Assembly: GCA_033964015.1 (NCBI GenBank)
Contig: CM066914.1
Coordinates: 10,469,831 to 10,533,830, forward strand
Length of the DNA stretch: 64,000 bases
Origin: Scolanthus callimorphus
Taxonomy: Eukaryota > Cnidaria > Anthozoa > Actiniaria > Edwardsiidae
Direction of reading: 5' to 3'
Below are positions 36,219 through 59,167 of this stretch, one piece after another. Position 1 is the stretch's first letter. Each line of letters starts with the position of its first letter. A program made the position numbers and the translations under genes. The notes under the pieces are model-generated. The model saw nothing but the letters and a program-made list of their open reading frames with translations, did not search any database and was not told where the DNA came from.

Positions 36219-36443
36219 ATGAACAACAACAACCAAAGGTTGAGATTTATGTTAAACGCCGAGGAGAAATGGTGTTTTGCTGACGTTTCGAGCGTTAGCC
36301 CTTCGTCTTTGTGTTTTGCTGACGTTTCGAGCGTTAGCCCTTCGTCGGAGCAAAGACGAAGGGCTAACGCTCGAAACGTCAGCAAAACACCATTTCTCCA
36401 CGGCGTTTAACATAAATCTCAACCTTTGGTTGTTGTTGTTCAT
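36219..36443 (-). repeat. Palindrome with 92-bp arms carrying hammerhead-like motifs
   Basis: 36219-36310 and 36352-36443 are reverse complements with one visible mismatch. The sequence GACGAAGGGCTAACGCTCGA followed by AACGTCAGC occurs three times: twice on the minus strand (about 36278-36306 and 36318-36346) and once on the plus strand (about 36356-36382). The motif has the hammerhead 3' core (stem GGGC-UAAC-GCUC, GAAA, then CGUC), but the CUGAUGA half is degenerate (CCGACGA or AAGACGA). It is probably the end of a retroelement or retrozyme that was duplicated in inverted form. Confidence 0.7.
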
Positions 36444-51686: not shown

Positions 51687-54600
51687 TTAATTGTCTTTCC
51701 TTATGCCTTCTTGTCTTGGCTTTAATTTTTCAACTTTCTTAATATAAGCTTCCTCAGCAGCATCCTTTGTCGTTCCTGGAACATACGCAAAATCTGTTTT
51801 AAACTCTACCCCAAAAAAGAGTTGACAAACAGAAGACGGCCAGCCATTTTCATATCCTTGTGCTTTGAAGTTTTGGTGAATGGAGTTATTTTACTCTTTA
51901 AATCTCAACACAGCTCAATCTTTATAATAGACATCCCGTCAGCAGCCTCACTGCAGGCACCCCTTGAAAGGTTTACTTTGCAGCATGCCCTAACCATACT
52001 CTAGTGGCATTGTATCACCATTTACACAGAAAGCCCAACCAGAACACCCTTAGGCTGACCACTATGGACAACACATTTGGTTTTTCAGCAGATGAAACAC
52101 ACAAGTATTTAAGCCAGGGATGCATGATTAGTGCATGTCTTAATTAGACCCCGTCCACACTACTCCGTTTTCAAACGAAAACGGATACTTTTTGCTCCGG
52201 ATACGGCTATCGTCCACACTAAAACGCCGAAAACAATCACCAAAAACGGATCAATCCGAAAACGCTCTCCAGAGTGGAGCGATTTGAAAAAGGAGCTGTT
52301 TGAAAACGATGTTTTCTAGTGTGGACGGGCGAAAACGATGCTATCCGAAAACGATGACGTCAGCACAGCAAACCCGAACAATTTCGCGGGCCGAAAGATC
52401 GAAATGCGCATGCGTTGAACTTGTTTGAGCATGCCCGCTGAATGCACAAGAGCGTTTTCGTACGAATACGCGTTGTAGTGTGGACGGGCGAAACTAACGA
52501 TAAGTGTGGACGCAAATCGTTTTGAAAACGGAGCCAAAAGTATCCGTTTTCGTTTGAAAACGGTGTAGTGTGGACAGGGTGTGTAAGGCATGTTTAATAC
52601 CTTTCTTTCCATTCCATGCATCCCATTTCGCCTTGCCTGTGAAATCAAGTATTCCTGGTCGTTCTGAAACAAGAGAACAAAAATATTTCATTACCCATAT
52701 ATTTATCTCATTTTCATTGTGGAACACAGAAGAACAATCAAAGGGCCAGAAGTTTCAAAACAAAACATTTCACTTCCAACCTGAAGAAGTATCAACAAGT
52801 CACAGCAGCGGCGTAGCCAGGAATTTCTGAAGGGGGGCCGGATAGTGAAAACATGGGACGAAAATGCGCAAATTTTCTACAGCAAATACAGTAAATGTGT
52901 GGGAAAATTTCCGAGAAAGGGGGGGCCCGGGCCCCCACTGGACCCCCCCTGGCTACGCCCCTGCACAGTACCAAAACTGTATTTTAGTAATCAACATCAT
53001 TCTGCAAATCAGTTATGTGAAATCACCCAGCAAGTGCCATTGGTTAATGTTGTGAATGACCAAGGACATAACCCGTGGTTCATCCAGGTTTCTGCTGGCA
53101 GGTCGCGGAAAAAAACCCGACAAATTTCGCGGAATTTTTAGGTTCAAATTCGCGGGAAAAAAAATGTTTATTCTCTCTTTTTGTAGCTTCAATTGAGCAG
53201 CTAAATTACAAGAGAGGGCAGCACTTTAAATATACGAATATATAGGAATATGAATAAATAATATATAGGAATATGAATAAATACAAATAAATAGTAAATA
53301 TTTACAATAATTCAGCGTGACGAAACGATCTGTTCGCGGAAAACGGTCGATTTCTTAGGTTCAAATTGGTGGGAAAAAAAACGACAATCGCGTGGGAATT
53401 CGGAGAAAATGTTCGCGTGATAGATTTTAAATTTAATTAACGCTTCTTTCATCTTGGCTAGTATCCAGTTTTCGCGTAATTTAGAGCACCTGGTTGTTTT
53501 GAATGTTGTTGTACTCGTGTCAGTGGCGAAAGATGCGAGCTTTATTTGCAGGTTTACCTTGTTTTTATGGCAAGAAGAAAAGCCGAAACGAGTTTCAAAT
53601 GTGCTGTGTCATTTATATCGTTCTTTATGATTTATAGCAAATTAATACGGATTTTGCGGGATTTCGCGTGCTTTGGTATATTTCGCGGGATTTCGCGGAT
53701 TTACCCAAATTTCGCGTGTCCGCGACCGCGCGAAATACCAGAAGCCCTGTTCATCAGCCAATCACACTGTGCAGAAATGACAGCAAAAGGAAAAGGCAGG
53801 GGAGATGGGACATTCCCCATGTCCGCTCCCTTTGTTGTTCACCAGAGTACTCTCTCCCCTCTCCCTTTAGTATCTTATCCATCAAGTCTTCGACCCTCGT
53901 CAGTTAAAATCTTACAGTATGACTAAAAATTAACATACAACTTACTTATACTAATATTAAAACAATAGTTTAAAAATGCAGGGTGAAAAGGAGACTAATT
54001 ACAAAGTTCAACTCCATTCAGAAAATGATTTTGACATGCCGCAAATGTTAGGAATTTACTCTAGCTAACATGTAGTCTATTTTTCGATTTAAATTCTTTC
54101 CTTTTGTTTAGCCCGTAGGGTTGAAGAGTGTGAAGTTGCGTCATCCAATACGCTTCTCGAGCGAGAAGCTTTTTTTCAATTTCACTGTTATCATGTCATA
54201 CAAAGAATGCATGCTCTCATTAAAGTGGATCGCAACTTCACACATTTTCTTGTTTGTCTTCATGGACGATTTGTGATTTCTAAAGCTTACTTTGAATGGA
54301 CGTACTGTAATTGGCACTTACTACAACAGGCCAGATAAATAACATTCAAGCTAGAACACATGATTTTTTTTTATTGCATAATTCTCTTTGTTGCAAAACT
54401 ACTGAAGCTATTTCCCTCTTCTAGATAGTTCTTACATAGATCGCTTTTTTTTGGATTTGAAGCAGCCTGCAGCATGCTGTGGTGTTGTGGTGGTTTTTAA
54501 TTTTGAGGGTTCCAAAAGCTCTTTTAAATTTTTAGTCCTTCTAAATGCTGGTATTATAGAATTAGTGGAAAGAATATGTGGTACCGCCTCTAGAAGTGAG

Positions 54601-57600
54601 AGATGCCTCCGCAGGACCTTAGAAACATCAGGGAGCCTAGGAATATAGTCGAGGGCAAAACCTTTGACTTGTCCTTGGCCCTAGGTTTTAAGAGATTCTC
54701 CCTTTCAATTTCAAAAGCCTTAGAAAATTTGCCTTCTATAAGGCGTGCAGGATATCCCTGGAAGTAAATACCACTTATGTTCCTCACTGCGCTTGTCGGG
54801 CGATTCCTGGGACAAGCAATTTCTATTTAGTCTCAACGCAACTCCATAAGGAACTGCCTGCTTGTAGTGCCAGGAATGGGAGCTGTCGTGGGGTAAATAG
54901 ATATGGCTGTCCGTCGGTTTGGCATAGATATCAGTAGTAATAAAACCATCTTTTAAATTTAGGGTCAGATCTAGTACATTAAGGGTGTGGTCAGAATACA
55001 CCAATTTGAATTTAATGGTGGGGTACAGGGAATTAATGTACTCAGTAAATTACATAAGCTTAGTGTCTTGGGATGTAGTGGCCATGTTCCCAAATATCGA
55101 TAATGAATTAGGTATCTCTGCCATTACTAAAGCGCTAAACACTAGGAATAATACAATTCCATCTACGGAAACGCTTGCAGTTATGCAGATTTAGCAATGG
55201 GGGAAATCGATCGAAAGGCTACTAATGGGGGACCCGCCAAGCCGAATCTATGGTGGCGGTACAGAGATGACATAGTCGAGGTTTGGACCCATGGGTTGCC
55301 TAAGCTTATGGAATTTACCGAGTACATTAATTCCCTGTTCCCCACCATTAAATAGACAGTTTTCACGATGTTGCGCACGCAGCATAAATGGGATGAGAAC
55401 AATGCTTGTCTGTTTTGAATAGCAAAAGCCGTCTTCACCAGAACGAGTCGGAACGGTTCAAGGGTATTGTTCTCGCAACATCGTGAAAACGGTCAATTCG
55501 CATCTTCATTATTTACTCTTCATATACATATATATATATATATATATAATTATCACAAGCAAGCTGAAACCAGCCAGAGAAGGAAATATACACAAACACA
55601 AAGAATATAAAGAAAAATGCTGTCCCGAGTGGGAATCGAACCCACATACTCTGGATTCATAGCCAGACGTGCTAACCACTACACCATCGAGACATCCACG
55701 CGTGAACGCAGATTAATTTATGGGGCAGATAGTTTCGTAGGTAGACTAGATACACTTTTCTATCAACTACTCTCTGGGTTGTAATACTAAAAATGTTATA
55801 TATCTTATAACCTGTAAGACATGCGGACTACAGTACGTAGGTTCTACTAGTACCAAATTTTGCTTGCGGTTGAACAACCATAAAAGTCGCATCAATACAC
55901 ATAACAATAAGAGTGCTAGCAAGCAGGAAGAAGATGATTGGATCTACAAGCATTTCAACTCTGAAGGACATAACGGAATGTAGGATGTTAGTGTTCAACT
56001 GATAGATCGGGTAAATAGATCAGAGGACCTCTTAAACAAGGAAGGAGAGTGGGCATACAAACTGAAGACAGTAAGACCCCACAGACTAAACGAGAGTGAC
56101 TTTTTTTCAGCCAGAACCATCAGACACACAATCGATTTATCTCCTAGTTGTAAAGTACTTTTTATTTATCAATGAGTGTATTCTCTAGCGTGTGCATATC
56201 GGTTTGTATGTAAATATCTTATAGTTTTAAGCGCGCGCGACTTGTTTGATGTTGTGTATAACGGTTTGATCTTCATTCACCCTGATGAAGATCTTTTTAC
56301 AAGATCGAAATATAGGTGATCAGCAAAAAACATTGTTTATTCTTCTTTTGTGACAGTATATATGAGAGAGAGAGAGAGAGTATAGATAGGTCCAAGTCCA
56401 GCCAACTACCAATGAGAACGATGAGGATCACATAGTCGGATTCACAGGATGACATCCACAGAGGAGAATTTATAGTAGATTATTACATGATTGACACCTT
56501 TTCTATTGTTATTCAAGACCCTTTATTTTACTTAAATCCCTATGAATTAATTACATTCTTAAAGAACGGGGAGGGTTTGAAGTTTCAGCAGGGAAGATTG
56601 GGGCTATTATTGAATAATTAGTCATAAATGACCCGCATTATAAATGCGCGGGTCTTTATTGAACAATTGATTCTCATAAATGACCCGTCGCATTTATAAC
56701 GAGGAGCAATTATGACTAATTAGACAAATAAAGCCCCACCCTTCCGATGCTGAAACACATTTACAGCTAAATGATATATACTACAAAATTGTTTGCTAGG
56801 TTAAATTGAAAATAAATATATATTTGAACAAAAAAAATGTATTTACTAGCTTTAACTGAATAGTGTGTCTCTAAATTGCAAATTGGCGATTCTTTCTACT
56901 TTACTACTAAATTTAACTATAATTAATATAGAATTAGTAGATGTTATATGTAACCTTGCTAGCCGGTTCCATTTCTGCTTCACGCTCAAACAAACTGTGA
57001 AAGAAATAGAAATAAACATAATTTAGAACATTGAGCTCATAACAATACATTTGCACAACACATTTTAAATTTCTTTCGTCAATACATTTTACCAGTTTGT
57101 CAAATTTAGGATGGACCTCGTACGTCGCAGCATCAACGGCACACAGGTCTAATACGTTCAAGTTAGTCATGCAATTTAAATTCACCAGACCGGTCTATTT
57201 CAACTGTTATAATAAAACGAATTACTATAAATAAGAACTTTAGTTTAACTTACCATGTCGTTCTCAATCGCCAACTACAGGACACTTTGAAATGTATTAT
57301 CTCTTGAACAGCTTAAAACCACACAGTGAGTGCCGAGTTCTTCACGCGCATAATGCACCCTTTTAGTCTTGAGACCTCAAGCGTTGTTTTTTCCTCCGAA
57401 ACTCGTTCTCAGTCGCCAACTTAGAACTACTAGTTCAGCACTCAAGCACTGACTCCTACAAAATGACGACCTAAAATCGCGAAAAACAGGTGTTTTGATT
57501 TCTTTTGTTGTTTGGTACAAAAAGAAGTACTTCCATTGGTCGTTTAAAATGAATGCATGAAAGCTAAAGGAACAATAGCCCCACACTTCTGTTTGTAGTC

Positions 57601-59167
57601 TCCCAACCACTCTAGGGATATATTCTTTAATTTAATGAAACGGGGGCTTTAGAATGCAAACAAATCTATTGTGAAAGGCACCTTCTCTGCAGTAAAATTG
57701 CCACGCAAAATACACGTTATTATGAGAAGTTGAAAAGAAAAAAGACATTCAAGGCATCACAGATTTCCCAGCCAACACTGACGACAATAGCTTTCAAAAC
57801 ATTTTTCATCCTTTTGTTCCGATACGACTTAAACCTCAGGGGATATCCCTCTACTGGAAAAAATAAAGATCCCTGGTTGATTTATATGGTTAAAAATCGC
57901 TTATTTGACGAAGTATTTTCGATTCTTTAATTGAAATGCGCTCCACCCGATCGTAAAATCACCTTAGATCATGTAATAAGTCAGTTAAATACCTCGGTCT
58001 TCGGCAATATGGCATATAAATACCTCGGGCCTATGGCCCTCGGTATTTATATGTCATATTGCCTCAGCCCTCGGTATTTAACTCTTACGTATAGAAGGTA
58101 CGGAGTCACACCAACTCGAAGTTCTTGAGCCATCAGCAGGATCAAAGGAAAAGAGAAAAATATATATTGCCTCGAATGGGACTCGAACCCACGGCTTTCG
58201 AATTTCGGTTTGGATGTATTAAGCACTACACCACCGAGGACAACCACGCTGGCAACGCAGCAATTCTCGGTAGTTCACAGTAAACACCTGTAGGGGTCCC
58301 AGGCTTTTTCTCTTTTCCAGAAACTGATTCACAGGGGACTTGGTAGAGACATATGTAGAGAGAATAGATAGGTCCAAGTCCAGCCAACTACCAATGAGGC
58401 CTAGGACCCCTACGGCTTATGAAGCCAAATTTTTCCTTTGAAGCAAAAAAAACGACAATAACGATCCATCAAAGTAACGTTGCATAGAAATATACCACTT
58501 AGTAAGTAAGGCCCTTCCATAAGCTTTAAAACAATACATAAATGGCCCTTGTAGCAAATAATGATGCAACAGTGATTTTTTTCGCGAAAAATTGACATCC
58601 CTCGCACAAAGGTATACTCATACCTTAAAACACTGTTTCAAATAAGGATTACTCGCGGGCCACCTTAAAACTCTTGTTTTGGCGGCACCCAAAAGCATGC
58701 TCAGTAAACATTTAGTAAACGCTTAAATCGAGTGAATTTACTTGAACTTAGCCCACATGTTTTAAGAAGTGACTACCTTGATTCATGATTTCATTTGATT
58801 TGGGTAGATCCATTCAAAATTCAAGACATTCAAGTTTTTACATTGCCATGTGGGTCAAAAGATCGACCTTTGCGAGTTCCATGCCACAGTTTCAACATAT
58901 TGTGTTAGAGTAATTGCTGCATAAATGGTTACTTATACTATAAGGAGCTCGGTTTTCTATAGAACTGTACCTGTGTTGCAATCTCCAACCGTAACTTGCT
59001 TGTAGTATGAATACAACTCCAACATGTCTGCTTCACTCGGCTTAGTCGGCAGTTTTTTGGCCTCCTCGGCTGCTTTCAGAAATGCCTAAAGAAAATAAAC
59101 AATTTTCAAGCAACTCACAGAGTCAAAAATTACAATCACCGTATAAAAGCTGTTTTACCTCAGACAT
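51687..59167 (-). CDS. DBI: Acyl-CoA-binding protein (ACBP/DBI)
   Basis: Small cytosolic four-helix carrier that binds medium- and long-chain acyl-CoA esters and supplies them to lipid metabolism. Exons 59159-59167 (M-S-E only), 58971-59085, 52601-52663 and 51687-51775; total 276 nt, 91 residues, against 87 in human DBI. All introns are GT-AG with matching phases (0, 1, 1). Family signatures: [20 protein letters not shown], then [16 protein letters not shown] with the ligand-contact Tyr and Lys, [13 protein letters not shown] with the conserved Lys and Trp, and [10 protein letters not shown] near the end. The nine-base first exon is supported by its donor, by phase and by the usual MSE/MSQ start. 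The second intron is 6.3 kb and full of mobile elements. The donor of exon 3 lies about 20 bp from a MITE end. Confidence 0.96.
52145..52583. repeat. MITE family with AGACCCCGTCCACACT ends, copy 3
   Basis: AGACCCCGTCCACACTACTC at 52145 and GTGTAGTGTGGACAGGGTGT near 52580. The interior repeats GTGTGGACGGGCGAAA twice, so it may be composite. It ends about 20 bp from the ACBP exon 3 splice donor at 52601, within the last ACBP intron. Confidence 0.8.
52807..52973. repeat. Short element with GGCGTAGCCAGG ends
   Basis: GCGGCGTAGCCAGGAATTTC at 52809 and CCCCCTGGCTACGCCCCTGC ending about 52974 form the inverted ends; there are G and C homopolymers inside each end. In ACBP intron 2. Confidence 0.75.
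53091..53745. repeat. Region of TTTCGCGGAA-type words, probable element
   Basis: Words such as AATTTCGCGG, TCGCGGAAAA and TTCGCGTGTCCGCGACC are repeated throughout, and the two edges (GGTTTCTGCTGGCAGGTCGC and GCGAAATACCAGAAGCCC) are loosely inverted. Probably an old non-autonomous transposon; the boundaries are approximate. Confidence 0.5.
53746..54070. other. ACBP intron 2, unassigned
   Basis: No feature recognised between the TCGCGG-rich element and the Penelope fragment. Confidence 0.4.
54075..55055 (-). mobile_element. Penelope-like element fragment (RT end and GIY-YIG), decayed
   Basis: Reading leftward from about 55050: [17 protein letters not shown] words, then [20 protein letters not shown] and [20 protein letters not shown] (reverse transcriptase C-terminal part), [20 protein letters not shown], and after a gap a GIY-YIG endonuclease remnant at about 54340-54080 with [24 protein letters not shown] and [20 protein letters not shown]. 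Several frame changes show it is dead. Penelope elements encode exactly this RT plus GIY-YIG pair. Confidence 0.85.
55056..55354 (+). mobile_element. Penelope-like RT fragment, opposite strand
   Basis: Open segments encode [20 protein letters not shown] (RT motif region), then, past a stop and frame change, [20 protein letters not shown] with the catalytic YRDD motif and [15 protein letters not shown]. It starts back-to-back with the minus-strand fragment at about 55056 and is cut by a hairpin element at 55354. Confidence 0.85.
55354..55494. repeat. Hairpin element ending the RT fragment
   Basis: AGACAGTTTTCACGATGTTG (about 55354) and its near-complement CAACATCGTGAAAACGGTC (ending 55494). 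It interrupts the Penelope reading frame directly after FPTIK. A (TA)n run follows at 55522-55546. Confidence 0.7.
55621..55693 (-). ncRNA. tRNA-like head of a SINE
   Basis: The 73-nt complement folds as a tRNA: acceptor GTCTCGA/TCGGGAC, D arm GTG...CAC with TAGTGGTTAG, a TCTGG/CCAGA anticodon stem, T arm GTGGG-TTCGATT-CCCAC and discriminator A. The anticodon loop has 8 bases (CTATGAAT) rather than 7, so it is probably not a working tRNA. A-box (TGGTGTAGTGGTTAGC) and B-box (GGTTCGATTCC) promoters are intact. Compare 58168-58241. Confidence 0.65.
55735..56335 (+). mobile_element. Penelope-like GIY-YIG endonuclease fragment with 3' end
   Basis: Frame from about 55735: [38 protein letters not shown], then [14 protein letters not shown], one in-frame stop, and [35 protein letters not shown]. 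This is the GIY-YIG nuclease domain (YLI...QYVGST, R, NHKS, E) of a Penelope-like element. It is 5'-truncated and better preserved than the minus copy at 54.1-55.0 kb. The non-coding tail contains the hammerhead-like motif. Confidence 0.88.
56276..56320 (+). ncRNA. Hammerhead-ribozyme-like motif in Penelope 3' end
   Basis: CTGATGA at 56282-56288, helix II GATCTT/AAGATC (loop TTTAC) and GAAA at 56307-56310 form the hammerhead core in order. The following TATA gives a two-base-pair helix III (A-U, U-A) and an AUA cleavage triplet ending at 56314. Helix I is TCACC (56277-56281) with GGTGA (56315-56319). One extra A (56289) lies between CTGATGA and helix II. Minimal type I hammerheads with very short helix III are known from Penelope-like elements; activity here is inferred. 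Confidence 0.7.
56336..56410 (-). repeat. Distal part of the SINE split by the Penelope insertion
   Basis: After a (GA)n run, ATAGATAGGTCCAAGTCCAG and CCAACTACCAATGAG match 58360-58400 exactly. This suggests that the tRNA-like unit at 55621-55693 and this tail were one SINE before the GIY-YIG fragment inserted. Confidence 0.65.
56411..57969. other. ACBP intron 2, mostly unassigned
   Basis: A short foldback with ATAATTAGTCATAAATGACC / CGTCGCATTTATAACG-like ends occurs at about 56616-56724. A minus-strand open stretch at 56934-57185 ([20 protein letters not shown]) is bordered by splice-like signals but has no recognised domain, so it is not called as a gene. Confidence 0.4.
57970..58090. repeat. 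Hairpin MITE with ATGTAATAAGTCAGTTAA ends, copy 2
   Basis: The same architecture as 44953-45072: ATGTAATAAGTCAGTTAAAT left, ATTTAACTCTTACGTAT right, and inner arms ATAAATACCTCGGGCC / GGCCCTCGGTATTTAT written here in separated halves. Confidence 0.8.
58130..58420 (-). mobile_element. tRNA-derived SINE, uninterrupted copy
   Basis: The tRNA-like unit at 58168-58241 (complement) has A-box GGTGGTGTAGTGCTTAATAC and B-box GGGTTCGAGTCCC, but a weaker cloverleaf than 55621-55693. The distal part (58340-58400) contains ATAGATAGGTCCAAGTCCAG and CCAACTACCAATGAG, shared with 56370-56405. It was probably transcribed by RNA polymerase III when mobile. A TAGGGGTCC / GGACCCCTA pair (58291, 58403) hints at inverted ends. 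Confidence 0.65.
58421..58970. other. ACBP intron 2, proximal part
   Basis: No feature recognised. Confidence 0.4.

Follow-up and report, generated by a model that had tools for sequence, protein, structure and literature searches.

The stretch of Scolanthus callimorphus DNA analysed here (the window, 64,000 nucleotides) carries the 3′ end of a Penelope-like element (PLE) on its forward strand. This 5′-truncated copy covers 606 bp (55758-56363), with limits drawn from homology to other genomic loci: among 29 other loci fetched, some of which overlap, homology to the window copy begins at 55758 in 17 and stops at most 2 bases from 56363 in 28. Within it lies the remnant of a GIY-YIG endonuclease (55756-56115, +), identified by Pfam PF01541 (E 2.3e-7) and by tblastn, whose ten best relatives are 58-63% identical. 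The remnant has an in-frame TAG stop at 55981-55983, and its frame ends at 56173-56175. About 100 bp further on, as an earlier note on this DNA had described, begins a hammerhead-like motif, with helix I starting at 56277.

No reverse transcriptase (RT) is present in the 606-bp copy. An RT fragment does occur upstream, at 55060-55352 (+, tblastn), and the inverted remainder of the same element, that is, the C-terminal part of the RT, a linker and a GIY-YIG domain, occupies 54070-55061 (-, tblastn). This other PLE is nearer to a different protein group (P0058 type) and has been broken by an inversion with a 54-bp inverted overlap. Reading the RT and the hammerhead of the window as one element was therefore rejected, as the RT pieces belong to this second, inverted PLE, which has its own GIY-YIG. 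Thus, the link between ribozyme, endonuclease and RT that the earlier note drew holds in the window copy for the first two; all three are joined in longer copies elsewhere (such as L071, L075 and L083), where RT and GIY-YIG lie in one unit upstream of the motif, some of them with shifted frames.

Some further features surround the two elements. A short stretch of inverted repeats lies between them at about 55351-55498, and a decayed hammerhead of the second PLE, of its own type, is seen at about 53887-53906 (-), which resembles L078 until helix II and is divergent before GAAACGTT. There are also two tRNA-like sequences with similar flanks, one between both PLEs (55621-55693) and the other at 58168-58240 (-), with Rfam tRNA scores of 57.8 and 36 bits, respectively. 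In addition, a 53-bp stretch is common to 56364-56416 and 58346-58398 (89% identical). Perhaps the two tRNA-like sequences and the common stretch are a tRNA-derived repeat that was split by a PLE insertion.

All the named elements of the motif can be read directly from the letters of the plus strand, in the expected order, between 56277 and 56319. The 5′ strand of helix I, TCACC (56277-56281), is followed by the catalytic core CTGATGA (56282-56288), an extra core nucleotide, A, between A9 and helix II (56289), and helix II itself (56290-56306), in which GATCTT (56290-56295) pairs with AAGATC (56301-56306) around the loop TTTAC. Then come the core GAAA (56307-56310), the sequence TATA (56311-56314), the end of which is the AUA triplet, and the 3′ strand of helix I, GGTGA (56315-56319). 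By homology to known hammerheads, cleavage is predicted after A56314 (H17), between 56314 and 56315, and an insertion that began exactly at this site would be expected to start with GGTGATCAGC. The motif has the CUGANGA...GAAA core of a type I hammerhead, helices I and II in type I order, and AUA as an NUH cleavage triplet. Helix III, by contrast, is missing. The two-base-pair helix III that had been proposed would be made of A56310-T56313 and T56311-A56312, four contiguous bases without a loop, and therefore it cannot close in cis. In consequence, a lone copy is not expected to be cleaved after 56314. In the place of helix III there is an AUAU palindrome (56310-56313, +) that could pair with a second copy. 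As in the minimal hammerheads of PLEs, neither the window motif nor its relatives have helix III nucleotides beyond the core pairs.

There are many related copies in the assembly of the window (597 Mb). A 121-base query found 44 close matches, including the window, that are 95-100% identical (73 candidates, 40 of them scored). A wider pattern, CCTGATGAAG..CGAAAYRT, i.e. CCTGATGAAGN{8,24}CGAAAYRT, which itself fixes the first pair of helix II and one base of helix I, gave 667 matches and its reversed control none. In genome contig and viral contig collections, no PLE DNA relative was confirmed. From roughly 100 places among the matches listed, 40 relatives were fetched, chosen to cover distinct strings. 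A helix II of at least 4 bp is found in 34 of them and in 87 of 100 among the matches listed, largely the same places, and in none of 38 viral contig stretches, many near-identical, that have a similar primary DNA pattern and were used as decoys. A helix I of at least 3 bp is present in just 26 of the 40 fetched; helix I is short, and this counts against the reading as a minimal hammerhead.

Helix I varies between subfamilies with its pairing kept (CACC/GGTG, TGCC/GGCA, TTTCC/GGAAA). A sister subfamily (L120 and L121, for example) shares helix I and AUAU with the window and has GGCTAG/CTAGCC in helix II, as opposed to GATCTT/AAGATC. Covariation was scored in 22 representatives selected as largely intact, namely 19 from the 40 relatives and the longer loci, minus those that looked broken, plus the window and the sister. 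Helix II is paired in 100% and helix I in 61.8% of cells. The covariation score is 0.528, against a shuffled mean of 0.177, with none of 500 shuffles as high, and it falls to 0.11 or less when the partner strand is slid. Ten of the 12 pairs have changed on both sides, and as many are seen in 17 of 500 shuffles. Across subfamilies, helices I and II thus show the compensatory changes that the earlier note had made a condition for its reading.

The motif can hardly have arisen by CTGATGA, a hairpin and GAAA coming together by chance within A+T-rich DNA. It is true that the loose pattern CTGANGA...GAAA is by itself not clearly above chance in the window (9 matches versus 5.3 expected; 12 of 100 shuffles reach 9), and that a scan of the motif with Rfam 15 gave no hammerhead match, even at E 10. 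Nevertheless, a strict descriptor (core, helix II of at least 4 bp, closing A-U pair, non-G H17, helix I of at least 4 bp, 0 or 1 extra base allowed), although drawn up once the motif was known, has a single match on both strands of the 64-kb window and is present in only 3 of 300 dinucleotide shuffles of it (mean 0.01); its 4-nt palindromic form is in none of the 300. The 44 close genomic matches also speak against chance, and the covariation and the reversed-pattern control of 0 refute it. Regarding Rfam, its hammerhead families also missed all 20 relatives that were scanned at E 1 (out of the 40 fetched with flanks), and so the absence of a match does not count against the window motif. Curated covariance models can evidently miss the minimal hammerhead class of PLEs. 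A model built from 23 sequences, with the window subfamily and its sister excluded, matches the window at 56274-56322 with 33.8 bits (E 1e-7). The covariance search proposed earlier hence failed with Rfam and succeeded with a model from other subfamilies. This model is not fully specific: contigs used as decoys on account of a similar primary pattern have scores of about 13-22 bits, and one of the 38 reaches 31.8. That one, a viral contig stretch (L015, 11820-11869, -) with flanks that look coding by eye, probably owes its score to chance among preselected stretches.

Comparison of sequences thus confirms the window motif as a real, conserved, minimal (helix-III-less) type I PLE hammerhead, of a kind already known, and the earlier note was right to place such a motif where a PLE has its 3′ end.

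The extra nucleotide after A9 had been regarded as a possible variant of one family. It is indeed a feature of the family, but not special to it, as it is nearly universal in the pattern class of this genome. With A as the extra base there are 667 genome matches (control 0), with C, G or T 121 (control 8) and without any extra base 3 (control 3). Among 100 listed matches with a base other than A, 96 have T, 2 have C and 2 have G; both G cases can be read as having no insertion, and they are two of the three matches just mentioned. Matches of this pattern class in the genome hence hardly ever lack the extra base, and it is almost invariably A or U. A 2001 paper in J Biol Chem reportedly found, for the extra nucleotide in the hammerhead of Chrysanthemum chlorotic mottle viroid (CChMVd), that A is tolerated, U is better, and C and G are worse. 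No statement of the rule was found in the literature searched, outside which lay the primary papers of Cervera and De la Pena (2014) and Lunse (2017), and it is not claimed as new to the literature.

The bases at the place of helix III follow a rule as well. A pattern with any bases at 15.2/16.2, the last letter of which happens to exclude the window subfamily, has 724 genome matches (control 2). Among 100 matches listed, these positions are CG in 70, AT in 14, TA in 8 and others in 8. In other words, the palindrome is ACGU, AAUU or AUAU in 92 of the 100, and AUAU, the one in the window, is the least common of the three with 8, a count from which the window subfamily is excluded. Positions 15.2 and 16.2 are complementary in 92 of the 100 listed, compared with 57 expected under independence, although these counts come from related copies and are not independent events. 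The 100 matches comprise 52 distinct strings, 45 of them complementary and 40 with a helix II of at least 4 bp. H17 is G in 3 of the 100 listed and another base in 97. Three different palindromes fit a dimer that would share a 4-bp stem III. This agrees with what is reported in parts of PMC6155905 and PMC7761336, namely that helix III is usually absent from PLE hammerheads, and that these may cut themselves as dimers. In the coral Acropora millepora, over 6000 type I motifs are described, most of them similar to minimal PLE variants (PMC7229834, in part).

Longer copies show how the motif is placed within its element. In L083, it occurs twice, at 2020 and 5396, flanking the coding region, and the two occurrences are 3,376 nt apart. 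The motif thus sits in a PLE at the repeated ends of the unit (the pLTR), with GIY-YIG upstream. Of 10 longer stretches, three (one from the sister subfamily) have GIY-YIG/PLE coding that ends 130-153 nt before the motif; in the remaining 7, no such coding was found within about 900 nt upstream, as would be expected if they are truncated or are non-autonomous kin. In the window, the 49 nt that follow the predicted cut (56315-56363, +) match the stretch after the upstream hammerhead of L083; that is, this tail is the start of the leader of the next tandem unit, and it ends in TATAT.

The 3′ ends of inserted copies fall into two groups. In 33 distinct copies (identical ones merged, segments under 200 nt excluded), the end lies past the predicted cut by 49 nt in 16, 48 nt in 1, 39 nt in 1, 99 nt in 3 and 103 nt in 10, while 2 continue on. 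Except for the one at 39 nt, these ends fall in TATAT or an A+T stretch like it, and many adjoin (AT)n. Three observed 5′-truncated tails start at about 56294 or 56306, and none at the cut site, 56315, which speaks against activity. Four loci (L139, L140, L141 and L088, identified by locus label) are small insertions that consist of two PLE tails in head-to-head inverted arrangement.

The motif is very probably a minimal, helix-III-less type I PLE hammerhead at the junction of units, which would cut as a dimer after H17 and would be left uncut downstream in the RNA that serves as template. It follows the GIY-YIG end of one copy and directly precedes the leader of the copy behind it. When copies arranged head to tail are transcribed together, a pair of motifs could join through the palindromic AUAU (ACGU or AAUU elsewhere among the subfamilies) into a double hammerhead, whose cuts after H17 would release a unit-length RNA of about 3.4 kb. 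Inserted copies have their 3′ ends 49 or 99-103 nt past the cut site, at TATAT in the next leader, and an RNA that templates a new insertion would therefore have to be uncut at its downstream hammerhead. The motif, its relatives, the compensatory changes, the tandem place and the two groups of 3′ ends are observed, whereas catalysis, the dimer and its role are inferred. PLE hammerheads are common and their role is unsettled (it is called unknown in a passage of PMC7761336), and this genome offers hundreds of natural variants with a clear rule: an extra A or U, three palindromes, and an H17 that is rarely G. In addition, the geometry sets cutting against use as a template, which makes the timing of ribozyme action directly testable.

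Several known systems can be compared with this one. The PLE minimal hammerheads of Lunse et al. 2017, as presented in parts of PMC6155905, PMC7761336 and PMC7229834, are like the window motif in their location in PLEs at repeated unit ends, lack of helix III, possible dimer and many copies per genome. Compared through these papers, the differences are the three palindromes and the A or U that almost always follows A9, both of them counted here. What this analysis adds is the count behind the extra-base rule, the occurrence of three palindromes, two groups of 3′ ends at TATAT and, for the window subfamily, a competing hairpin. PAc, a Poseidon element of Anolis carolinensis, similarly has, where pLTR and ORF meet, a hammerhead with stems I and II, as well as a 3′ tail and AT-rich targets, according to excerpts of PMC11167929. 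By contrast, the start site of PAc lies in an AC-rich stem-loop and is described there as not homologous to the cleaved DNA, whereas here the 3′ ends are at two TATAT sites, many beside (AT)n, so that microhomology is possible. The plus-strand hammerhead of CChMVd also has an unpaired extra A right after A9 (PMC3705267, in part), although it belongs to an infectious circular RNA that is unrelated to PLEs, and U is also found as the extra base here. Canonical type I hammerheads (Rfam RF00163) and metazoan retrozymes (PMC7229834, in part) share the CUGANGA...GAAA core, helices I and II and the NUH site. They differ from the motif described here, which has no helix III loop and no Rfam match and belongs to a coding unit of about 3.4 kb in place of a short non-coding repeat. 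An assignment to the metazoan retrozymes was rejected, given that a coding PLE unit of 3,376 nt is not a short non-coding tandem repeat with a canonical type I hammerhead; the copies that follow each other at about 400 nt on C15 correspond to the truncated end of the PLE.

Whether the window subfamily is still active is doubtful, because RNA folding in context predicts a competing hairpin over part of the core (56268-56293, +), in which 56268-56277 pairs with 56284-56293. With the natural 5′ flank included, the predicted pair probability is at least 0.98 for 8 of its 10 pairs and 0.83 and 0.60 for the two adjacent to the loop, while that of helix II is near 0. Without the upstream flank, helices I and II of the hammerhead are the predicted minimum fold. 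An upstream complementary arm was rejected as a general feature, as only two of 14 stretches stood out: the window subfamily, for which 1% of 300 single-base shuffles are as strong, and one T7 copy with an inverted neighbour. The PAc hammerhead, for its part, is reported not to cleave without protein and to be dispensable for insertion in vitro (PMC11167929), which also counts against activity here.

Three other readings were weighed. One of them takes the upstream arm, GAUCUUCAUU, as a built-in lock that pairs with the core and the 5′ strand of helix II, takes shape first as the RNA is transcribed, and holds the hammerhead inactive until the protein of the element or a second copy opens it. 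Such a lock is quite unlikely. If it existed, the RNA would remain uncut while it serves as template, because the 3′ start site is 49 nt beyond the cut, and, together with the A or U extra base, it would make PLE hammerheads a regulated variant of the core and not a decayed one.

The motif might well be an inactive relic instead, although we lean slightly against it. The sequence would then be kept just because the copies are young, the hairpin would already have silenced the ribozyme, and the dead hammerhead would spread. The dominance of the competing hairpin in the predicted ensemble of the window subfamily favours this. So does another very abundant motif of the genome (892 matches), for which 98 of the 100 matches listed carry C at core position 4, and thus spread seems not to need a consensus core. 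Furthermore, hammerhead mutants are reported, in excerpts of PMC11167929, to have no effect on PAc insertion in vitro. The core, the non-G H17 and the palindrome, which are intact in the window motif and largely kept across subfamilies, nevertheless speak against a relic.

It is very unlikely that the motif is a conserved structural hairpin, binding a protein or forming part of the start signal of reverse transcription, with a hammerhead likeness due to common ancestry only. Its position 49 nt before a 3′ terminus would suit such a role. In PAc, moreover, insertion in vitro does not depend on cleavage (PMC11167929, in part). However, a structural hairpin has no need for CTGANGA and GAAA, for a non-G H17 (97 of 100 matches listed), for an A-U closing pair, for a palindrome or for an extra base that is A or U in nearly every match. 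In addition, excerpts of the same paper state that PAc templates shortened from the 5′ end to ORF position +20 still worked, and thus the region around the hammerhead is not required in PAc.

The abundant motif with C at core position 4 was counted with YYGACGAAGGGCTAACGCTCGAAACGTCAGC, whose 892 genome matches contrast with a control of 0. Among 100 matches listed, 95 start with CC, 3 with TC and 2 with CT, and 98 have C, not U, at core position 4; it is a very abundant family with a deviant core. In the window, this other hammerhead-like motif, CCGACGAAGGGCTAACGCTCGAAACGTCAGC (model E 8e-8), forms a palindromic array at 36282-36380, with one full and one partial copy on the minus strand and one partial copy on the plus strand.
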